Below are positions 1,988 through 10,066 of a DNA stretch of 18,535 bases, piece by piece. The notes under the pieces were generated by a model, which was given only the letters and a program-made list of their open reading frames with translations, ran no database searches and had not been told where the DNA came from. Source of the DNA: Rickettsiales bacterium (GTDB taxonomy: Bacteria > Pseudomonadota > Alphaproteobacteria > Rs-D84); assembly GCA_031278055.1 (NCBI GenBank), contig JAITLD010000062.1, positions 1 to 18,535 on the forward strand, given 5' to 3'. The position numbers and the translations under genes were made by a program. Position 1 is the first letter of the stretch; each line of letters opens with the position of its first letter.

Positions 1988-2143
1988 ATGAAAAAAAATA
2001 ACATATCTCATGTCTCATGCCTCATGTTTCTTGGCGCATGTCTATTCCTTGCCGCCTGCTGTCGGTGCGAGGTAGAGCCGGTTGTGGAACAAAATCATAA
2101 ACTGATAGTCCCGCCGAATTTCGGACAAAAACCGAAAGCATAG
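1988..2143 (+). CDS. small lipoprotein of 51 residues
   Basis: A short ORF with an AAAAAGGAA ribosome binding site (1972-1980) about 8 nt before the ATG. The product has a basic N-terminus (MKKNN), a hydrophobic stretch and a good lipobox, LAAC with Cys24, so it should be a lipid-anchored envelope protein with a mature part of only 28 residues. The tail reads LIVPPNFGQKPKA, resembling the 'VPP-F' motif of alphaproteobacterial DUF3035-type lipoproteins; that link is weak. Residues 6-14 (ISHVSCLMF) are encoded by a dispersed repeat unit at 2003-2030. It follows thrS by 14 nt and is probably in the same transcript. Its role is unknown. Confidence 0.7.
   Translation: MKKNNISHVSCLMFLGACLFLAACCRCEVEPVVEQNHKLIVPPNFGQKPKA
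2003..2030 (+). repeat. CATG-rich dispersed repeat, single right arm (copy 1)
   Basis: Successive units of the pattern TCTCATG / CCTCATG / TTTC, matching the right arms at 9045-9067 and 9768-9787. It lies wholly inside the small lipoprotein gene and is read in frame as ISHVSCLMF. No matching left arm is visible upstream. Confidence 0.65.
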
Positions 2144-2159
2144 GAATTAAATTTTGTGT

Positions 2160-2188
2160 TTGTGCCGTCTGATTTTTTTTGATATAAT
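2160..2188 (+). promoter_or_regulatory. promoter of the first pilin-like gene
   Basis: TTGTGC (2160-2165), 17-nt spacer, perfect TATAAT (2183-2188). The predicted start near 2195 gives a short leader containing the TAAGAGG ribosome binding site at 2199-2205. Confidence 0.6.
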
Positions 2189-2211
2189 TCGGTAAAGATA
2201 AGAGGCTTTGT

Positions 2212-2553
2212 ATGAAGATATTAAAATCATTCGCGGTTATTGGCGTTGTGATTCTGGCGGGCATGACTAGTGCCTATGCCGCCGGGCTCGGCGGCGACCC
2301 GTGCGTTCTGATCAACGAACTGGGATATGTGTTCCGCACTTTGCGCACTTTGGCATTCGCCGGTGCGGCGTTCATGATTGCCGGTTGGGCCTGGACATAC
2401 ATAAAGGGCAGTTCGGATGGCAAGACGAGCCTTGTTGATGATTTGAAAAACAAAGGGGTCGGCCTTCTCGTCGGTTTTGCATTGCTGTTCGGTTTGGGAG
2501 TGATAATACAATTCTTGCCCGGTTTTTTCGAATGCGGCAACCTTAATTGGTAA
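2212..2553 (+). CDS. VirB2/TrbC-like pilin subunit, copy 1
   Basis: 113 residues with a Sec signal peptide (basic MKILK, hydrophobic core, cleavage after AYAA at about residue 24). The mature part has two hydrophobic segments (about 43-62 and 85-104) joined by a short polar loop rich in K, S and D. This is the layout of TrbC/VirB2 major pilins of type IV secretion systems, which are inserted in the inner membrane and assembled into pili. Two Cys, in GDPC and FECG near the two ends of the mature chain, are both on the periplasmic side and could form a disulfide. No other vir/trb gene is in this window, so the machine it serves is not visible. About 90% identical to the protein at 2676. It has its own promoter and terminator. 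Confidence 0.75.
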   Translation: MKILKSFAVIGVVILAGMTSAYAAGLGGDPCVLINELGYVFRTLRTLAFAGAAFMIAGWAWTYIKGSSDGKTSLVDDLKNKGVGLLVGFALLFGLGVIIQFLPGFFECGNLNW

Positions 2554-2580
2554 AGAATTACCTTACGCAAAAAAATGAAC

Positions 2581-2614
2581 CCCGCGGCGCGATTATCATT
2601 GCGGGATTTTTTTT
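2581..2614 (+). terminator. Rho-independent terminator after pilin copy 1
   Basis: CCCGC (2581-2585) pairs with GCGGG (2601-2605) across a 15-nt loop, followed by A and eight T (2607-2614). The stem is short but the T-run is strong, and a similar structure follows copy 2. Confidence 0.65.
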
Positions 2615-2623
2615 ATTTGCCTT

Positions 2624-2651
2624 TTGTTTTTTATATTGTCTATGATACAAT
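2624..2651 (+). promoter_or_regulatory. promoter of the second pilin-like gene
   Basis: TTGTTT (2624-2629), 16-nt spacer, TACAAT (2646-2651). The same TTGTTT-N16 layout occurs ahead of the SPOR gene at 3049. Confidence 0.5.
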
Positions 2652-2675
2652 TAGAAAAAATAAAGGTGTTAAATT

Positions 2676-3005
2676 ATGAAGATATTAAAATCGTTCGCGG
2701 TTGTGGGCGTTGTGATTCTGGCGGGTATGGCTGGTGCCTATGCCGCCGGTCGCGGCGGCGACCCATGCGTTCTAATCAACGAACTGGGATATGTGTTCCG
2801 CACTTTGCGCACTTTGGCGTTCGCCGGCGCGGCGTTCATGATTGCCGGTTGGGCCTGGGAATACATAAAGGGCGGAAAGGCGGAGATAGACGATGTGAAG
2901 AAAAAGGGGGTCGGCCTTCTCGTTGGTTTTGCATTGCTGTTCGGCTTGGGAGTGATAATACAATTCTTGCCCGGTTTTTTCGAATGCGGCAGCCTCAATT
3001 GGTAA
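2676..3005 (+). CDS. VirB2/TrbC-like pilin subunit, copy 2
   Basis: 109-residue paralogue of the gene at 2212, with the same signal peptide, two membrane segments and the same GDPC and FECG cysteines. Differences are concentrated in the loop between the membrane segments, where copy 2 is four residues shorter and more charged (KAEIDDVKKK), and in four positions near the signal peptide. The two membrane segments are identical in both copies. AAAGG lies about 9 nt before the ATG. The high DNA identity with separate promoters and terminators points to a fairly recent tandem duplication, or to gene conversion. As a pilin it would be exported and assembled by a type IV-like secretion system encoded elsewhere. 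Confidence 0.75.
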   Translation: MKILKSFAVVGVVILAGMAGAYAAGRGGDPCVLINELGYVFRTLRTLAFAGAAFMIAGWAWEYIKGGKAEIDDVKKKGVGLLVGFALLFGLGVIIQFLPGFFECGSLNW

Positions 3006-3012
3006 AGAAAAG

Positions 3013-3033
3013 TCCCGCAGCGCGGGATTTTTT
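3013..3033 (+). terminator. Rho-independent terminator after pilin copy 2
   Basis: TCCCGC (3013-3018) pairs perfectly with GCGGGA (3022-3027) across the triloop AGC, followed directly by six T. A textbook intrinsic terminator. Confidence 0.85.
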
Positions 3034-3048
3034 ATTTGTCTCTTTATT

Positions 3049-3076
3049 TTGTTTTCCTTACTTTTTGTGATATAAT
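3049..3076 (+). promoter_or_regulatory. promoter of the SPOR-tatA unit
   Basis: TTGTTT (3049-3054), 16-nt spacer, perfect TATAAT (3071-3076). Transcription would start near 3083, just ahead of the AAGGAG ribosome binding site of the SPOR gene. Confidence 0.6.
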
Positions 3077-3105
3077 GCGATAAAAGAAAGCAAGGAGAAT
3101 CCAAA

Positions 3106-3807
3106 ATGGCGGAACTTGACGCTGAGAATGAAGTTTTGGAGTTTGATGATGATTCATTGCCCGAGTTGCCGGATGACAATCCGTTTGAGGATACGGGGAC
3201 CAAGCGACCGTGGCTGTTGGTCGGAATTGGCGTTGTCGCCATAACTTTGGTGGTGGTGGTCGTTTTGAAATTGACGATGGGGGGCCGCGACAGCGAAACA
3301 GGATTGATTGAAATTCCGATTGAATCCGCCGCGCTTGAAGATGTTCCGAGCCCCGATTTTGTAGACCAGGCAAATAAATTGGTCGCAGTTGATAATGAAA
3401 AACCCACAGGTATGCCCGAACGTGTTGTCGATAATCGCAAGAGCGTATCATTTGATCCGGATAAACCGACCGTCCGTCGGCCAAAGCCGCGGCCAATCGT
3501 CGGCAAGTCATCGAAACCTGCGAGGGATTCTTCGCCGGCAAAAACCGCGCAAATATCGGGCGGCAGATGGATGGTTCAGGTTGGTTCATACCCGACCCGC
3601 GCGGCCGCAGAATCGGGACAACGGAAATTACAGGCCGCGCATGACAGTTTATTCGGCGGGCATAATTTCACGATACTCGCGGCTGTTCTGCCAAACGGTC
3701 AGACAACATACCGCCTGAGAGTTGTCGGTTTCGAGACTGGCCATGAAGCCAACGGTTTTTGCAGAAACGCGCAGTCGGACGGCGTTCAATGCTATGTAGC
3801 AAAGTAG
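3106..3807 (+). CDS. SPOR-domain inner-membrane protein
   Basis: 233 residues. An acidic cytoplasmic head (1-30) is followed by one membrane segment (about 35-57), a Pro/Lys-rich periplasmic linker (about 60-150) and a C-terminal SPOR domain (about 153-232, beginning WMVQVGSYPTRAAAE and ending QCYVAK). SPOR domains bind denuded glycan strands at the division septum, so this is probably a FtsN-like or septum-targeted envelope protein. AAGGAG lies 7-12 nt before the ATG. It is directly followed by tatA (9 nt between them); a SPOR gene close to the tat genes is a known alphaproteobacterial arrangement. The linker and head are low complexity and give no further clue. Confidence 0.88.
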   Translation: MAELDAENEVLEFDDDSLPELPDDNPFEDTGTKRPWLLVGIGVVAITLVVVVVLKLTMGGRDSETGLIEIPIESAALEDVPSPDFVDQANKLVAVDNEKPTGMPERVVDNRKSVSFDPDKPTVRRPKPRPIVGKSSKPARDSSPAKTAQISGGRWMVQVGSYPTRAAAESGQRKLQAAHDSLFGGHNFTILAAVLPNGQTTYRLRVVGFETGHEANGFCRNAQSDGVQCYVAK

Positions 3808-3816
3808 GGGGAAGTT

Positions 3817-4005
3817 ATGCGGTTTGGATTTTGGGAAATATTTTTAATAGTCGCGCTGGTATTCTTGCTGTTCGGGGCGAACAAGTTTCCGGCGATGATG
3901 AGAAACCTGGCCGAAGGACTAAAAATTTTCAAGAAAGAGATTAAGGAAAAACCGAAGCCTGCCGTGAAAAAATCCGTCGGTAAAAAAGCGGCGAAAAAAA
4001 AATAA
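3817..4005 (+). CDS. tatA: twin-arginine translocase subunit TatA
   Basis: 62 residues: an N-terminal membrane helix (about 5-20), the FG hinge (LLFGANKFP), an amphipathic helix (about 24-43) and a Lys-rich tail. This is the standard TatA/E layout. TatA oligomers form the passage for folded twin-arginine substrates after docking on TatBC in the inner membrane. A strong AGGGGGAAG ribosome binding site (3806-3814) precedes the ATG. Unusually, tatB and tatC are not next to it but about 5.8 kb downstream. It could be called TatE, but it is the only TatA-like gene visible here. Confidence 0.9.
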   Translation: MRFGFWEIFLIVALVFLLFGANKFPAMMRNLAEGLKIFKKEIKEKPKPAVKKSVGKKAAKKK

Positions 4006-4053
4006 TCGGCCCGGCGGTTTACGAATTAACGGTGGTTTTCGCGCCTTGTCTGG

Positions 4054-6246
4054 ATGTGGTTTAATTGCGAATTGAATATGTTTGGACAGGAATTGCCCAT
4101 TTTTCCAAAACAAATAAGAAGCGCGATTGGAAATATTTTCGCCAAGATTCTTGGTTGCGGCCTCTTGGGTTTCGCATTGTGGGCGATTTGGGCGCTTGCG
4201 TTCATGCCAGACGATTTGCAAACATGGACAAATTTCTCGACCTATCCGCCCGCAGGAAATTTCGCGAAAATAATTGATTTGTGCGTTTATGCAATCGGCT
4301 CGATTCCATTGCTTTTTGTAATCTTGTTTTTATTTCATCCCGCGATATTGTTGATTTTTGGAAAAAGGCGGCCGCATCCCGAGGTCATGGCAATGCAGGT
4401 ATTCATATCCGCGATGTCGCTTTCATCGTCGATTTCTATTTTGATTCCCGGCACGCTTGCCGGCGGGGTTTTCGGAACGTTTGTCGCGAACGACATTGGT
4501 AAAATATTCGGGCCGTGGCCGTCTATTTGTTTCGGCGCGTTATTTATGGCCGTATTTTTTCTGTTGTCCGGCGCCGCGACGCGAATCACATTTGGAAAAA
4601 TCATACGATTCTTTTACATAACCGGACGGCTTGTCGACGGATTCTTTATAAAATTATTCGGCAGAAAAAATCGCGGTTTTACCAATATCGATTTTAATAA
4701 ACCCAAAATAAGAAGAAGAACTGTTAAGAAAAAAACCGTTAAGAAAAAAATCCAAAGAAAATCCAAGAAAGACGAAGAATTTGAATACGAGTTGCCTCCG
4801 CCCGAATTGCTGGAAAAATCGAGTTTTTCTGGAAATATGGTTATGCGCGAGCATAGGGATATCGCCGCCAGCATGGAAGTGAACTTTGCGAAATACGGCA
4901 TTCGCGGCGCGGTGCGGGAAATTCACCCCGGGCCGATTGTTACGCGGTATGATTTCGAGCCCGAGGACGGGCAGAAAATAAATAAAATCATGGAAACCGC
5001 GACGGACATGCGGCGCGCCATGGCGACGGAGCAAATCAGGATAGCCCTTGTTCCAAGAACGCGATATATCGGCGTCGAGATGGTGAATCCGAATCGGCAG
5101 TTCGTTTATTATCAAACTCTGATGTCCAACCCCGAGTTTGTCGAATCGAGAATGAAGCTGCCGCTTGCGCTCGGCGTCGAAATCGGCGGGCGACCTTTTT
5201 ACGCGGATTTGGCGAAGATGCCCCACGTATTAATCGCCGGCCGCACCGGTTCCGGAAAGTCGGTGTTCATGCAGTCGATTATAACATCGATCGTCTATCG
5301 CAATCGGCCGGATGAATGCAAGATTGTTATTGTTGATCCGAAAGGCGTCGATTTCAACAAATGGCGCGATATTCCGCATTTGATCGCGCCGATTGTGAGC
5401 GAGGCCGCGGCCGCAGTCAATGTTCTCAAATGGGCGGTGCGCGAGATGGAAGACAGATATAAAGTCCTGCAATCGGTCGAGGTTCAGAATATTTCCGATT
5501 ATAACGATTTTGTCGACAAGATGAATGCGCGAGGAAAATTATTTAGAAAAAAGGTTCCCGTCGGGACGAACGAGGATGGCGAAATCGAATATGAGATAGA
5601 AGAGAGGCAATTGGAAAAAATGCCCTATATCGTGATTATTATGGATGAAATCGCCGACCTGATGCAGCAAATGCGGAAAGAGGTCGAGGCCTGCATACAA
5701 CGCATAACGCAAAAGGCGCGCGCGGCCGGAATTCATCTGGTTGCGGCGACACAGCGGCCGGATGTGTCGGTTATAACCGGCGTAATTAAATCCAATCTGC
5801 CGACCAGAATTTCGTTTCAGGCGCGCTCGTATGTCGATTCTATGACGACGCTTGGCGAGCGCGGGGCGGAAATGTTACTGGCGCAGGGCGACATGCTTTA
5901 CAGCGAATCCGGCAAGCAGCCGATTCGGATTCACGGCGCTTTCATTCAGGATAAAGAAGTCGACAGGGTGGCGAAATTCCTGCGTGCTGAAGGCTCGCCC
6001 GATTATGTGGACGGAATAACGGACGCGGCGGACGATTCCGGCGTTGCGATTCCCGGGTTTCCGTCCGGCGGCGACGAGCTGTATGATCAGGCGGTGGAAA
6101 TAGTATTGCGCGATAAAAAGCCGACGATTTCTTATGTTCAACGGCGGCTTGGAATCGGGTATAACAAGGCCGCGACATTGATTGAGAAAATGGAGGCCGC
6201 CGGCGTTATAGTCAAAACCCCGGGCGGAAAATACGAGGTTGTATAA
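4054..6246 (+). CDS. ftsK: DNA translocase FtsK
   Basis: 730 residues. Septum-anchored ATPase that pumps DNA and clears the chromosome terminus at division. The N-terminal membrane domain has about four hydrophobic segments (roughly 31-52, 75-101, 115-145, 155-175). A Lys/Arg-rich linker (about 218-240) contains two VKKK repeats. The motor domain has Walker A GRTGSGKS (396-403), Walker B IVIIMDE (526-532) and the conserved ATQRPDVSVITG segment (565-576). The C-terminal winged-helix gamma domain (about 665-730) should read polar DNA motifs and contact XerD. The linker is short compared with many FtsK proteins, so the whole is on the short side. Neither ATG 4054 nor in-frame ATG 4078 has a clear ribosome binding site; 4078 is a real alternative start. 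Confidence 0.95.
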   Translation: MWFNCELNMFGQELPIFPKQIRSAIGNIFAKILGCGLLGFALWAIWALAFMPDDLQTWTNFSTYPPAGNFAKIIDLCVYAIGSIPLLFVILFLFHPAILLIFGKRRPHPEVMAMQVFISAMSLSSSISILIPGTLAGGVFGTFVANDIGKIFGPWPSICFGALFMAVFFLLSGAATRITFGKIIRFFYITGRLVDGFFIKLFGRKNRGFTNIDFNKPKIRRRTVKKKTVKKKIQRKSKKDEEFEYELPPPELLEKSSFSGNMVMREHRDIAASMEVNFAKYGIRGAVREIHPGPIVTRYDFEPEDGQKINKIMETATDMRRAMATEQIRIALVPRTRYIGVEMVNPNRQFVYYQTLMSNPEFVESRMKLPLALGVEIGGRPFYADLAKMPHVLIAGRTGSGKSVFMQSIITSIVYRNRPDECKIVIVDPKGVDFNKWRDIPHLIAPIVSEAAAAVNVLKWAVREMEDRYKVLQSVEVQNISDYNDFVDKMNARGKLFRKKVPVGTNEDGEIEYEIEERQLEKMPYIVIIMDEIADLMQQMRKEVEACIQRITQKARAAGIHLVAATQRPDVSVITGVIKSNLPTRISFQARSYVDSMTTLGERGAEMLLAQGDMLYSESGKQPIRIHGAFIQDKEVDRVAKFLRAEGSPDYVDGITDAADDSGVAIPGFPSGGDELYDQAVEIVLRDKKPTISYVQRRLGIGYNKAATLIEKMEAAGVIVKTPGGKYEVV

Positions 6247-6289
6247 AAGAACCCGATTCTAACTCGGAAAAAGAGGATGCGGTTGCCGA

Positions 6290-7117
6290 TTGAAATATAG
6301 TTTGTTTGTGATTTTTGCGCTGGCCGCGACGCCCGCATTCTCCGATTGTAATGTTCGCGGGGTGAGGTCTGCGGCGCCGGTATTGTGCGGCAACGCCGTT
6401 CAGGGCGGGTTTCTTTACGGCGAGACGGATTATTTTGTTCATAGCCGCCAATATGACGCGGTCTATAAGAATAAGATTTTTGTTCTCGGATTGCCTATGG
6501 ATGCGGACGAGAAATTAACTTTGCAATTTTGCAAAATGCCTTTCAATAACGGATTTGCCAATTGCCAATCATTCGATTACAAAGTAAAACAGCGAAAATA
6601 TGCGGAGCAAAATATCAGAGTCGACGATAAGTTTATCGATTATCCGCCGGAAATCCAAAAGAGAATCGATTTGGAAAACGGGCGCATGGCATCCGCGATG
6701 AAAAATATCGACCCGTCTTTCATCGGGTTTATGAATTGGAAATATCCGTTCGCAAAAAAATATCCGGTATCCGGATCGTATGGCGCGCGGCGCGTGTTTA
6801 ACGGCGAAAGAAAATCCCCGCACAGAGGGCTTGACATAGCCGCGCCTAGGGGAACGAAAATCCGCGCGGTAGGGGTCGGCAAGGTTGTTTTGACAATTGA
6901 TTCTTACATGTCCGGCAAGACGGTGATAATCAGCCATGGGTTCGGAATATTTTCGCTATACGCGCATTTGAATAAAATCATCGCCGCGACCGGCGACATT
7001 GTAGGCCCTGATTCTATAATCGGAACGGTCGGCTCAACGGGCCGCGCGTCCGGTCCGCATTTGCATTTGGGGCTTTATTTCAATCGGACGCCGATTGACG
7101 CGGGATTGTTTTTCTAG
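6290..7117 (+). CDS. secreted M23 (LytM-type) metallopeptidase with intact active site
   Basis: 275 residues. Signal peptide MKYSLFVIFALAATPAFS, then an unrecognised periplasmic domain (about 20-145) with four Cys, then the M23 domain (about 150-275). All zinc-site residues are present: H178 and D182 in HRGLD, H225 in YAHL, and H257/H259 in HLHLG. It is therefore predicted to be an active endopeptidase cleaving peptidoglycan cross-bridges in the periplasm. The start is TTG 6290; AAGAGG at 6271-6276 is a rather distant ribosome binding site (13 nt), and no in-frame ATG gives a better signal peptide. It follows ftsK by 43 nt and precedes recJ by 31 nt, all in one direction. Confidence 0.88.
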   Translation: MKYSLFVIFALAATPAFSDCNVRGVRSAAPVLCGNAVQGGFLYGETDYFVHSRQYDAVYKNKIFVLGLPMDADEKLTLQFCKMPFNNGFANCQSFDYKVKQRKYAEQNIRVDDKFIDYPPEIQKRIDLENGRMASAMKNIDPSFIGFMNWKYPFAKKYPVSGSYGARRVFNGERKSPHRGLDIAAPRGTKIRAVGVGKVVLTIDSYMSGKTVIISHGFGIFSLYAHLNKIIAATGDIVGPDSIIGTVGSTGRASGPHLHLGLYFNRTPIDAGLFF

Positions 7118-7148
7118 TAAAATCGCGCCGATAAAAAAAGAGAATACA

Positions 7149-8849
7149 GTGAGGATAATTTGTGAAAGGTCCATATCCGGAAAGATATGGGCGACGGATG
7201 ATGTTGTCGGCGGCGCGGACATTATAGATTCTATTCTGTCAAAACGAAACCTGGCCGATGAAGAGGCGAAAAGAATTTTTCTGAATCCCAGTTTGCGCGA
7301 ACAGATGCCCGACCCATTTGTCTTGCTCGGAATGGACAAGGCTGTCGAAATTGTCGCGGCTGCGATTCGTTTTAAGAAAAAAATCGCGATTTTCGGCGAC
7401 TATGACGTTGATGGAATTACCAGCACTGCGATTTTAATCAAATTTTTCCGAATAATCGGCGCCGATGTCGTATGGCATTTGCCGGATCGCGAGATCGAGG
7501 GATATGGATTGAATGAATCGGCAATACGCGATTTTGCCGCGTGCGGCGCAAAGTTTTTGCTGACAGTCGATTGCGGAATTACAGCGTTAAGGGAAGTCGC
7601 CGTCGCGAAAGAACTCGGCATGTCGGTTGTCGTGACAGACCATCACGAGCCGACGGAAATATTGCCGGACGCCGAAGCGATCGTGAATCCAAAGCAGGCG
7701 GCCGACAAATCGGGATTGCAATATCTGGCGGGCGTCGGCGTCGCGTTTATGTTTTTGGTTGCGCTGAATCGCGAATTGGGACATCCCGTTTCCGATTTAA
7801 TGCAGTTTCTCGATCTGGTCGCGCTTGGAACAATTTGCGATACAATGCCTCTTTTGGGGCTTAATCGCGCGTTCGTATCCGTTGGCCTCAGGGTTTTGGA
7901 AAAACGGCGGAATATAGGACTTCGCGTTTTGATGGAAAAGGCGGCGGTTAAAAGGGTCGATGTGTATGCCGCCGGTTTCATTCTGGGGCCGCGTTTGAAC
8001 GCGGCGGGCCGGATGACGGACGCGAATCTGGCGCTGGATTTGATTTTAACGGACAATTTCATGATTGCGAATGATTTGGCGGAAAAATTGAATACCATGA
8101 ATGAAAGGCGTCAATCGATTCAAAATGCGATTCTGCTGAATGCCGACGGGGCCGCGCGCGAGCAAAAAGAGTCGGGCGCATTTTGTTTGTTTGTTTCCGG
8201 CGCGAACTGGCACGGCGGCGTCATGGGAATAGTCGCGGGACGACTGAAAGATAAATACGGGCTGCCGTGCTGCGTCGCAACCTCGGCGGATGGAGTCGTT
8301 AGCGGCAGCGGTCGTAGCATAGAAAGTGTAGATTTGGGCGGGATAATACGTAAAGCTATGGATGAAAAAATCATAACTGGCGGCGGCGGCCATGCGGCAG
8401 CTGTGGGATTTGAATTGTCGGCTGAAAATGAAAAGAAATTCGCCGATTTTCTGAATGGGCAGGTTTCGGCCGCCTTAAACGGGGTTCTGCCAACGCCAAA
8501 AATCGATATTGATGTTGAAATAGATGCGGGCGGCGCAAATTTAGATTTGGCGACATCATTATCCAGATTGGCGCCGTTTGGAATCGGAAACAACGAGCCG
8601 GTTCTTTCTCTTTCCGGCGGAATGTGGGCTTTCGGTCGAACGATGGGCGGCGGCGGGCATTTATTCGGAAATCTGAGGACAAGCGCGGGCCAGCTTCCGG
8701 TTGTAGGCTTCAATATGTCGGATAGTCCGGTCGGACGATTTTTGTTGGATGAATCGAATTTTGGCTGTATTATAAAGGTTGTCGGGAAATTAAAAGAGAA
8801 TGATTTTTCAGGCGGAGTTCAATTGCTGTTGGAAGACGCTTCATTATGA
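7149..8849 (+). CDS. recJ: single-stranded-DNA exonuclease RecJ
   Basis: 566 residues from the GTG start. 5'-3' exonuclease on single-stranded DNA in recombination and mismatch repair. DHH-family motifs are in order: GDYDVDG (83-89), DCG (141-143), DHH (164-166), RLNAAGRM (282-289), and in the DHHA1 domain SGSGRS (385-390) and GGGGHAAA (about 411-418). The C-terminal OB-like domain is present. GTG 7149 is preferred because an A/G-rich AAAGAGA lies just ahead of it; the frame is open further up to a TTG at 7095, but that would overlap the upstream peptidase gene and adds an unconserved 18 residues. The stop at 8847-8849 sits in ATGAAACATGA, a fragment of the dispersed repeat. Confidence 0.95.
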   Translation: MRIICERSISGKIWATDDVVGGADIIDSILSKRNLADEEAKRIFLNPSLREQMPDPFVLLGMDKAVEIVAAAIRFKKKIAIFGDYDVDGITSTAILIKFFRIIGADVVWHLPDREIEGYGLNESAIRDFAACGAKFLLTVDCGITALREVAVAKELGMSVVVTDHHEPTEILPDAEAIVNPKQAADKSGLQYLAGVGVAFMFLVALNRELGHPVSDLMQFLDLVALGTICDTMPLLGLNRAFVSVGLRVLEKRRNIGLRVLMEKAAVKRVDVYAAGFILGPRLNAAGRMTDANLALDLILTDNFMIANDLAEKLNTMNERRQSIQNAILLNADGAAREQKESGAFCLFVSGANWHGGVMGIVAGRLKDKYGLPCCVATSADGVVSGSGRSIESVDLGGIIRKAMDEKIITGGGGHAAAVGFELSAENEKKFADFLNGQVSAALNGVLPTPKIDIDVEIDAGGANLDLATSLSRLAPFGIGNNEPVLSLSGGMWAFGRTMGGGGHLFGNLRTSAGQLPVVGFNMSDSPVGRFLLDESNFGCIIKVVGKLKENDFSGGVQLLLEDASL

Positions 8850-8860
8850 AACATGACGAT

Positions 8861-8975
8861 TTATAATTGACAATTAACAATTATTAAGGCATGAAACATG
8901 AGATATGAATTTATAATTAAAAAATCTTGCGAGCAAGGCGAACTCATTGATTAATAATTGATAATTAATAAAATT
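8861..8975 (+). repeat. AT-rich inverted repeat element between recJ and lolA
   Basis: The arms TTGACAATTAACAATTATTAA (about 8867-8887) and TTAATAATTGATAATTAATAA (about 8951-8971) are imperfect inverted copies. The interior holds a repeat arm (8891-8909) and a small palindrome CTTGC-GA-GCAAG (8926-8937). No transposase is present. It resembles a short non-autonomous or MITE-like element, but no target duplication was identified. No gene is seen in 8850-8978. Confidence 0.45.
8889..8909 (-). repeat. CATG-rich dispersed repeat, single arm (copy 2)
   Basis: ATGAAACATGAGATATGAA (8891-8909) is the reverse complement of the right arms at 2003, 9045 and 9762. A shorter piece, ATGAAACATGA, lies at 8846-8856 over the recJ stop codon. 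Confidence 0.55.
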
Positions 8976-8978
8976 AGT

Positions 8979-9076
8979 ATGAAACATAGGGCAAGAAATA
9001 TGGAATATAAAAAAAACGCAGGGCAAAATTCCCACGCCCGTCCTATATCTCGTGTCCCATGTTTCATGTTTCATGT
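8979..9076 (+). repeat. palindromic CATG-rich repeat overlapping the lolA start (copy 3)
   Basis: The left arm 8979-9003 and right arm 9043-9067 are complementary at 20 of 25 positions by eye. The loop contains an A-run and GGGCAAAA, both shared with copy 4 at 9675-9789. The unit ATGTTTCAT is then repeated once more (to 9075). The left arm contains the candidate lolA ribosome binding site and start codon; the right arm encodes ISRVPCFMF in the signal peptide. Confidence 0.7.
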
Positions 9077-9674
9077 CTTATGTCTCATATTTCTTCTCTC
9101 TTCTCCGCTTTTTGCGGGGGTTGATTCCAAACTAGTTGCAAAGGCGGAGATATATCTGAATGGCATAACCGGATTATCGGGCGAATTTTCGCAAGCTGCG
9201 GGAGGAAAAAGGGACAAGGGTGTTTTTTCAATGCTTCGGCCCGGGCGTGTTCGGTTGGATTATTCCACATTGCCCGTCCAACTGGTTTCAAATGGAAAGG
9301 ATTTATATTTTTATGACAAGTCTCTTGATCAGATAACGACAGTTCCATTAACGTCGACGCCGGCCGGAATATTGGTGCGCAAGAAAATAAATCTGACGAC
9401 TGCGGATATTGTTGTTTCGGAAACGATGTCGACCCCGAATTCTTTTTCACTAAATATTCATATTCGCGGACAGGAGGGCGCCGGCCGAATGAGGGTCGAC
9501 TTCTCGCAAAATCCGGTCGCGTTGAAGTCGTGGGTCGTTTATGACGCGACGGGAATGGAAACGGAAATTGTTTTTGTAGATATGAAAATCAAGACAGATT
9601 TTCCAAAGAATTATTTCGAATTGCAAAGACACAAAATGACATCCAATTCCGGAGGGGATGATTTTTATGAATAA
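9000..9674 (+). CDS. lolA: outer-membrane lipoprotein carrier protein LolA
   Basis: About 224 residues. Periplasmic chaperone that accepts lipoproteins from the LolCDE transporter and carries them to the outer membrane. The mature part has the LolA pattern: AEIYLNGITGLSGEFSQ, then GVFSMLRPGRVRLDY, LVSNGKDLYFYD, a mid-domain with TPAGILV, and a closing LKSWVVYDATGMETEI strand. The signal peptide has a long n-region and the core FMFHVLCLIFLLSSPLFA. Much of the n- and h-region is encoded by the palindromic repeat at 8979-9076. Start 9000 is chosen because AGGGCAAG precedes it; ATG 8979 and ATG 9066 are in frame and possible. LolA close to ftsK is a common alphaproteobacterial arrangement. Confidence 0.88.
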   Translation: MEYKKNAGQNSHARPISRVPCFMFHVLCLIFLLSSPLFAGVDSKLVAKAEIYLNGITGLSGEFSQAAGGKRDKGVFSMLRPGRVRLDYSTLPVQLVSNGKDLYFYDKSLDQITTVPLTSTPAGILVRKKINLTTADIVVSETMSTPNSFSLNIHIRGQEGAGRMRVDFSQNPVALKSWVVYDATGMETEIVFVDMKIKTDFPKNYFELQRHKMTSNSGGDDFYE

Positions 9675-9789
9675 TATGGGATAAAAGACATGGGCCGTGA
9701 GATAAGAGATATGAAAAAAACAGCATTGGGCAAAACCTGCGCGCTTGCCCCATGCCCCATATTTCATATCTCGTGTCTCATGTTTCATA
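9675..9789 (+). repeat. palindromic CATG-rich repeat between lolA and tatB (copy 4)
   Basis: The outer stem GAGATATGAAA (9706-9716) with TTTCATATCTC (9762-9772) is perfect over 11 bp and extends imperfectly outward. The inner stem 9723-9733 with 9745-9755 pairs at 10 of 11 positions (GCAT..GGGCAA with TTGCCC..ATGC). It fills the whole gap between lolA and tatB. It shares arms, an A-run and GGGCAAAA with copy 3. No T-run follows, so it is not a normal terminator. Confidence 0.7.
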
Positions 9790-9799
9790 CCACATAAAT

Positions 9800-10066
9800 A
9801 TGTTTGGAATAAGCGGTGCGGAATTTTTAATAGTGCTTATAATCGCGATTGCGGTCGTGCCGGCCAAAAACTGGCCGGATGTCGCGCGAATGGTGGGGAA
9901 ATTCGTCCGTTATGTTAAAAATATTATCGGAAAATTACAGGACGGAATTGATAATTTTGAAAATGAAGTCGCGAAAGATTTACCCCTCGATAATCTGTCG
10001 CAGAAAACTATGGATGATATGATAGAAACATTTTCAACACCGGTAAAAAAACGGCGCAAAAAATGA
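9800..10066 (+). CDS. tatB: twin-arginine translocase subunit TatB
   Basis: 88 residues: a short N-terminal membrane helix (MFGISGAEFLIVLIIAIAVV), a hinge with Pro (VPAKNWPD), then amphipathic and charged helices and a basic tail. With TatC it forms the receptor for twin-arginine signal peptides in the inner membrane. ATG 9800 fits the family N-terminus (MF-I-..E). The same frame stays open upstream to ATG 9752 through the palindromic repeat, but that extension would ruin the membrane-helix start. No Shine-Dalgarno is visible before 9800, so initiation may depend on other features. The 3' end overlaps tatC by 4 nt (ATGA), indicating coupled translation. Confidence 0.88.
   Translation: MFGISGAEFLIVLIIAIAVVPAKNWPDVARMVGKFVRYVKNIIGKLQDGIDNFENEVAKDLPLDNLSQKTMDDMIETFSTPVKKRRKK

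Follow-up and report, generated by a model that had tools for sequence, protein, structure and literature searches.

Short tandem arrays of seven- or eight-nucleotide units, dispersed through the genome and often palindromic, probably supply the signal peptides of many unrelated exported proteins in a genus of uncultured alphaproteobacteria, where they would have replaced older ones; the probability of this reading is set here at roughly three in four. The element was studied from an 18,535-nt contig (JAITLD010000062.1; the whole stretch is called the window) of a Rickettsiales bacterium of Rs-D84, an order that according to PMC12306168 includes Enterousia, and the bacteria carrying the arrays are probably gut-dwelling. 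The analysis covered the draft genome of the window (G000, 674 kb, 83% complete) and four other genomes of the same genus (G001 to G004). Signal peptides were called by eye and from hydropathy, not blind, and the gene names recJ, tatB, rsmH, miaA, nusA, murG, mraZ, rodA, plsX, rplS, tolB, four-helix bundle and MltG-like were given by eye, as were others for which no Pfam family is cited.

Arrays and the genes that carry them

The arm found in the window consists of tandem heptamers, (YYYCATR)n, in many cases accompanied by an inverted partner. It lies in a small lipoprotein gene (2003-2043) and in lolA (9045-9096), where it is read as ISHVSCLMF and ISRVPCFMF, as the original prediction had stated, and its recurrence is far above chance: the pattern (YYYCATR)x3 with up to three mismatches was matched 25 times in the window, 0.36 being expected, and at most twice in any of 200 shuffles. 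With up to two mismatches, 37 matches were obtained in the whole draft and none with the reversed pattern; after rejection of one likely chance match (C9:3775, two mismatches) they were grouped into 12 sites. Signal-peptide cores are formed at three of these, in the small lipoprotein, LolA and a BamB-like lipoprotein (contig C67, PF13360), and the remaining sites lie inside rsmH- and miaA-like genes (two), at the 3′ end of a nusA-like gene (one) and in intergenic regions (six). The proposed genome-wide search thus did find copies at gene starts, but the excess in G000 alone is modest, with p 0.0015 if signal-peptide DNA makes up 2% of the target and 0.11 if it makes up 10%.

The two window genes do read the arm in the same frame, as had been claimed, but this has no value as evidence and was rejected as such. 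Because seven cannot be divided evenly by three, a heptamer array yields a nearly identical periodic peptide in each frame, as seen in the window arrays (ISHVSCLMF, SHASCFLAH and ISCLMPHVS) and in the lipoprotein arm (ISHVSCLMFLGAC, YLMSHASCFLAHV and ISCLMPHVSWRMS), each of whose three antisense frames contains a stop; a common frame is therefore evidence neither of common origin nor of frame selection.

Strong support for the secretion idea comes from other species of the genus, above all G001 and G002, where other repeats were found at signal peptides. The unit of G001 is an octamer, TTCTCTTA, with 147 matches, and among the matches listed it is confined to this genome within 183 genomes of the family. 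At least 40 clusters were read: 26 lie at signal peptides of different proteins, 11 elsewhere, and three at contig ends were undecided. An in-frame start precedes 25 of the 26 signal-peptide arrays, the remaining one being cut 5′ by a contig end. The proteins concerned include BamA, LolA and an NlpD-like protein; Pfam named an S41 peptidase with PDZ, LysM/M23 (NlpD-like), POTRA/Omp85 (BamA), DUF2155, an outer-membrane protein (OMP) barrel, a secretin and MltA, and gave no match for many other array-bearing proteins of G001. An n-region of the type MELVKRFLLKIKALRLRRAP before FSYSLILLFS is common to 16 copies, and an identical 65-base core occurs at three genomic places. Some copies are palindromic, with arms measuring about 107 nt end to end, and others consist of the array only, as in BamA and one more gene, where it follows MKKI with no left arm. 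Among 25 copies measured, the array phases are represented 22, 2 and 1 times, and the dominance of one phase is as expected for copies of one cassette. A second unit of G001, the heptamer TTCTCTG (L074, L091, L128, L129, L239), is sometimes joined to the octamer, and it forms the signal-peptide core of the small lipoprotein of this genome.

The heptamer TTCATTC of G002 gave 154 matches, the reversed control none. At least 38 clusters were read, 22 of them at signal peptides (mostly FFILHSSFFI), one in a membrane anchor and 15 elsewhere. Eighteen of the 22 have an in-frame start (ATG or TTG) with a gene following the array, two are cut 5′, one is cut 3′ and one is out of frame; many of these copies are arrays without a left arm. 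In G004 the unit CTTGTCT occurs at five sites, two at signal peptides (a BamB-like and a CPVC protein), two antisense within genes and one intergenic. The antisense arrays (L255, L257) code for charged linkers (RDKRQET), one of them in a dnaX-like gene.

The unit differs in each of four of the five genomes; even with one mismatch allowed, YYYCATR was absent from G001 to G004. The pyrimidine-rich sense strand of each unit is stop-free in all frames and codes for hydrophobic peptides (SHVSCLM, FSYSLILL, FILHSSF and LVSCLLS in G000, G001, G002 and G004), and the antisense strands of the first three contain stops. The arrays stand in sense orientation within the signal-peptide segments of unrelated exported proteins, ahead of conserved mature parts. 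A charged n-region, a hydrophobic core and A-x-A or a lipobox were recognized on visual inspection and from hydropathy (best mean over 12 residues 1.38-2.93 in 46 tabulated copies), and from this layout the array segments would appear to work as Sec/Lsp signal peptides.

For the binomial tests the share of signal-peptide DNA in the target was assumed to be 10%, as suggested by the coding density in PMC12306168, whose Table 1 gives about 90% coding DNA in nine Rs-D84 genomes. The probabilities obtained were 2.8e-18 for G001 (26/37 decidable clusters) and 2.1e-13 for G002 (22/37, the membrane-anchor cluster being left out), and with a share of 25% they were 9e-9 and 9e-6.

Orthologues with different arrays and the lolA locus

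The comparison of N-termini in relatives, which had been suggested as a check, gave similar mature proteins with other signal peptides. Nine orthologue pairs were compared (BLASTP, 43-71% identity), and arrays are present in both members of eight of them: the SNase-like, DUF2155, OMP, acidic exported protein and BamA pairs of G001 and G002, the CPVC protein of G002 and G004, BamB of G000 and G004, and the thrS-linked small lipoprotein, which has YYYCATR in G000 and TTCTCTG in G001. In the ninth pair, that of the NlpD-like proteins, only the G001 member has an array, the signal peptide of the G000 member being ordinary. Different arrays make up the signal peptides ahead of conserved mature parts, from which the arrays would seem to have replaced older signal peptides. 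Since LolA, BamA, BamB and the NlpD-like protein are export families anyway, replacement of existing signal peptides is what is seen, and there is no support for the idea that the repeat seeds signal peptides on genes whose products were not exported before. An inherited array position at the five genes common to G001 and G002 is not claimed, because five shared genes are about the number expected by chance if some 120 genes are exported (an assumed figure). A homologue search with DUF2155 gave only two proteins, one being that of G001 itself and the other 77% identical to it with differently arranged arrays. Searches for lolA in G004, for bamA in G000 and G004, and for bamB in G001 found none.

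LolA was followed further. The proteins of G001, G002 and G003 are 61-65% identical to that of the window; their signal peptides are built of the octamer array with an inverted left arm in G001, of a 14-nt tandem in G002, and are ordinary in G003. A tandem score was determined for 50 LolA signal-peptide regions, namely the window and 49 named loci (two from one genome; by title from rumen, reticulum, ileum and others), and a Candidatus Enterousia locus is present among the LolA relatives. Scores above all 548 mature 90-nt windows (background maximum 16) were reached only in G001 (21), G000 (19) and G002 (18), the window region having been set by hand (96 nt) and the others by rule (90 nt). Moreover, of 1481 LolA homologues the best 120 were examined, and exact 8-aa translations of heptamer arrays, from several different units, occur in 11 of their signal peptides; the mature parts of these 120 contain none, and 200 rounds of shuffling produced none. 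These are protein sequences, and three of the 11 have one common peptide.

In the window, LolA read from 8979 comprises the left arm MKHRARNMEYKK, the right arm ISRVPCFMFHVLCLIFL, and then LSSPLFA and the mature protein. The predicted hairpin of this copy (8975-9100) has -38.7 kcal/mol, z -7.0 against 60 mononucleotide shuffles. Downstream of lolA, the stop of the frame across the next element (Table 1) ends two bases before the ATG at 9800, which is taken as the start of the tatB-like gene; the frame is perhaps a leader or a decayed start.

Table 1. Array-related features of the window (strand as + or -)
Position	Strand	Feature	Remarks
1988..2143	+	Small lipoprotein gene, 51 aa, MKKNNISHVSCLMFLGACLFLAACC...	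G001 orthologue, also after thrS, has a different signal-peptide array
2003..2043	+	Right-arm heptamer array coding for the hydrophobic core of the lipoprotein signal peptide	
8883..8910	-	Heptamer copies in inverted orientation between recJ and lolA	
8978..9012	-	lolA palindrome, left arm	ATG at 8979 and 9000, charged n-region
9041..9096	+	lolA palindrome, right arm; its heptamer array codes for the hydrophobic core of the LolA signal peptide (ISRVPCFMFHVLCLIFL)	
8979..9674	+	lolA, PF03548, 5.2e-20	Start uncertain: 8979, 9000 or 9066
9675..9716	-	Left arm of the element that separates lolA from the tatB-like gene	
9741..9796	+	Right arm of the lolA-tatB element	Predicted hairpin -44.0 kcal/mol for 9670-9800
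9711..9797	+	Putative 28-codon frame across the lolA-tatB element, MKKTALGKTCALAPCPIFHISCLMFHTT	Signal-peptide-like

Several further observations concern the surroundings of the arrays. A second heptamer array, GAGTTAT, stands beside the first in G000 (L032 at about 4700-4740 and L034 at about 6597-6690, contigs C32 and C36); by eye it is intergenic, with stops on both strands. An rsmH-like frame of G000 (L035, contig C79, near 1780-2050) contains a tandem peptide repeat of the type PSDISPPIGG together with an array insert, and a similar peptide is present in a frame of G001 (L085). Palindromes resembling repetitive extragenic palindromic elements, of the type ATTCCCGCC-TTCGCGGGAATGACA, recur at loci of G001, G002 and G004 (L239, L223, L256). 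In the window, two adjacent genes for small membrane proteins with signal peptides (2212-2553 and 2676-3005) are 93% identical over the aligned DNA; from their appearance we take them to resemble VirB2/TrbC, and Pfam gave no match for the first.

Competing explanations

A more far-reaching form of the reading, for which we see even odds, is that portable, frame-independent secretion cassettes, i.e. palindromic arrays of length 3n±1, keep replacing signal peptides throughout the lineage, with start codon, charged n-region and hydrophobic core in one hairpin and one unit per species. In the mechanism held likely for the main reading, palindromic arrays of this length would disperse through the genome, and wherever a copy met the start of an exported gene, the right arm would become the hydrophobic core; the purine-rich left arm and the spacer would provide the start codon and a K/R-rich n-region, the full palindrome being the cassette. 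Copies at exported-gene starts could serve in this way because none of the frames of the pyrimidine-rich strand has a stop and each gives a hydrophobic peptide, and substitution for an older signal peptide would be easy because any frame serves. As the purine-rich arm codes for charged and its complement for hydrophobic residues, the hairpin alone would have the layout of a signal peptide. Copies in mature domains would mostly be purged, intergenic copies would be neutral and those at exported-gene starts would be kept. Candidate routes for the spread of units are copying as a mobile element and template switching into pyrimidine-rich signal-peptide DNA.

Several observations weigh against the supply of signal peptides by arrays, or limit it. 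Five other genomes of the family have exact YYYCATR arrays, and none of their 11 sites is at a signal peptide; lolA and bamA of G003 have no array, and bamB of G002 is ordinary. The other LolA signal peptides score slightly above the mature windows as well, three more reaching 16. In the 16 G001 cassettes the n-region is without a clear signature of selection by codon position (diversity 0.385, 0.297 and 0.363), and a comparison of single-difference codons (465 nonsynonymous and 347 synonymous; 433/264 and 619/150 in the other frames) gave no clear signal either. Strong predicted hairpins over the start codon should hinder translation. Array-bearing starts with an ATG apparently out of frame occur at L105 and L128 (G001) and L212 (G002), for which phase variation, decay or assembly error are candidates. 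An antisense arm is the apparent start of a four-helix-bundle-like, non-exported protein in G001 (L072) and G002 (L229), two different elements starting the same gene in two species. Finally, an array stands open and in frame immediately ahead of rodA-, plsX- and tatB-like genes; these sites were counted as gaps, the expected N-terminus lying beyond the array.

The strongest alternative, which we hold possible though clearly the less probable, is pure tolerance: insertion would be random, copies would survive only in gaps and signal peptides, and arrays would be used there with nothing favouring them. Arrays are indeed also present in gaps and gene ends of G000, G001 and G002, one lies in an apparent single transmembrane anchor (L221), and copies in mature parts are few (the rsmH- and miaA-like genes and the two antisense copies in G004). 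Yet signal-peptide DNA should then be less than about 10% of the permitted target, a share assumed because about 90% of the DNA in Rs-D84 genomes is coding, and the fractions found in G001 and G002 are far larger. The number of arrays at signal peptides would thus seem to reflect tolerance together with a preference or benefit.

It is improbable that the arrays are contingency loci, in which gain or loss of 7- or 8-nt units would switch the frame and cause phase variation of surface proteins. The three starts apparently out of frame would fit such a role, but the arrays are short, 25 of the 26 signal-peptide arrays of G001 have an in-frame start and the other is cut by a contig end, and switching is hardly to be expected of core proteins such as BamA and LolA. 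Slightly less credible again is a role as a device acting as DNA or RNA at gene starts, such as a terminator or regulator, with signal-peptide coding as a by-product. The strong predicted hairpins, the antisense arms at the four-helix-bundle-like gene, and copies of the element before mraZ-, murG-, rodA- and plsX-like genes agree with it, as do the arrays open in frame before the rodA-, plsX- and tatB-like genes, where a start after the array was judged from the expected N-terminus. It is opposed by all classified sense arrays that need translation, since they belong to proteins with an export segment, and by the arrays without a left arm in BamA of G001 and in many G002 genes. An artefact of assembling or binning repeats in metagenome genomes is very hard to credit: eight G001 contigs do end at or inside the element (C14, C16, C18, C35, C42, C71, C73, C79), but open frames run across the arrays, the mature proteins are conserved in four genomes, and array-like signal peptides also occur in proteins from other sources.

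Related repeats and significance

The likeness to Rickettsia palindromic elements that had been pointed out holds, as the repeat is dispersed, palindromic and present in coding sequence in a stop-free orientation. Those elements are palindromes of 105-146 nt found in intergenic regions and in frame inside genes, with 19 reading frames and gmk as the tested example (Ogata 2000, as described in PMC2229807). The G000 hairpins at lolA and between lolA and tatB are palindromes of roughly 100-150 nt, and copies here are likewise both intergenic and in frame within genes; unlike in Rickettsia, the translated copies are mainly in signal peptides and the units are short and tandem. The closest precedent in the sources consulted is Yersinia RU-2 and the exported protein YPO1552 (Delihas 2007, PMC2759123; PMC2229807). 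For RU-2/YPAL and other frames of enterobacterial miniature inverted-repeat transposable elements, a second case, YPO2495, is also predicted there, with relatives having other signal sequences, but the cases described are few and mostly putative small proteins, whereas the present genomes have dozens each, including BamA and LolA, made of tandem 7/8-nt, species-specific units. The TAACTGA arrays of Beggiatoaceae and cyanobacteria are similar as high-copy tandem heptamers often near gene starts (PMC4679880), and dispersed head-to-tail 7-nt units are equally found in G000, G002 and G004, the main unit of G001 being an octamer. In forward orientation the TAACTGA arrays are, according to the same source, interrupted by stops in every frame and lie mostly between genes, in contrast to the stop-free, coding arrays described here. 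No Rfam family matched in the five sources searched, and apart from Delihas 2007 no report of repeats supplying signal peptides was found among the titles and abstracts listed.

What is new compared with the known systems is the scale, the core genes, the tandem 3n±1 units and the turnover between species.

Signal peptides are interchangeable in the laboratory, and to our knowledge little is understood of how new ones originate in nature. A repeat with a suitable peptide in every frame, on dozens of genes, is a visible source of export signals, and because this source can be seen in the DNA, the turnover of export signals becomes traceable between close species or strains. The starts of array-bearing genes are hard to call, the database start of the window LolA (202 aa, from 9066) lying inside the array. 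The arrays also suggest frame-tolerant secretion tags. Ohno is said to have proposed in 1984 that oligomer repeats were the primordial coding sequence, a length not divisible by three giving one periodic peptide in every frame; that was a hypothesis on early genes, and the arrays concern present-day signal peptides. They are a concrete case of repeats turned into useful coding sequence and, if the reading is true, would be natural present-day coding sequence born from oligomer repeats, which suggests a simple route for the origin of new export signals.
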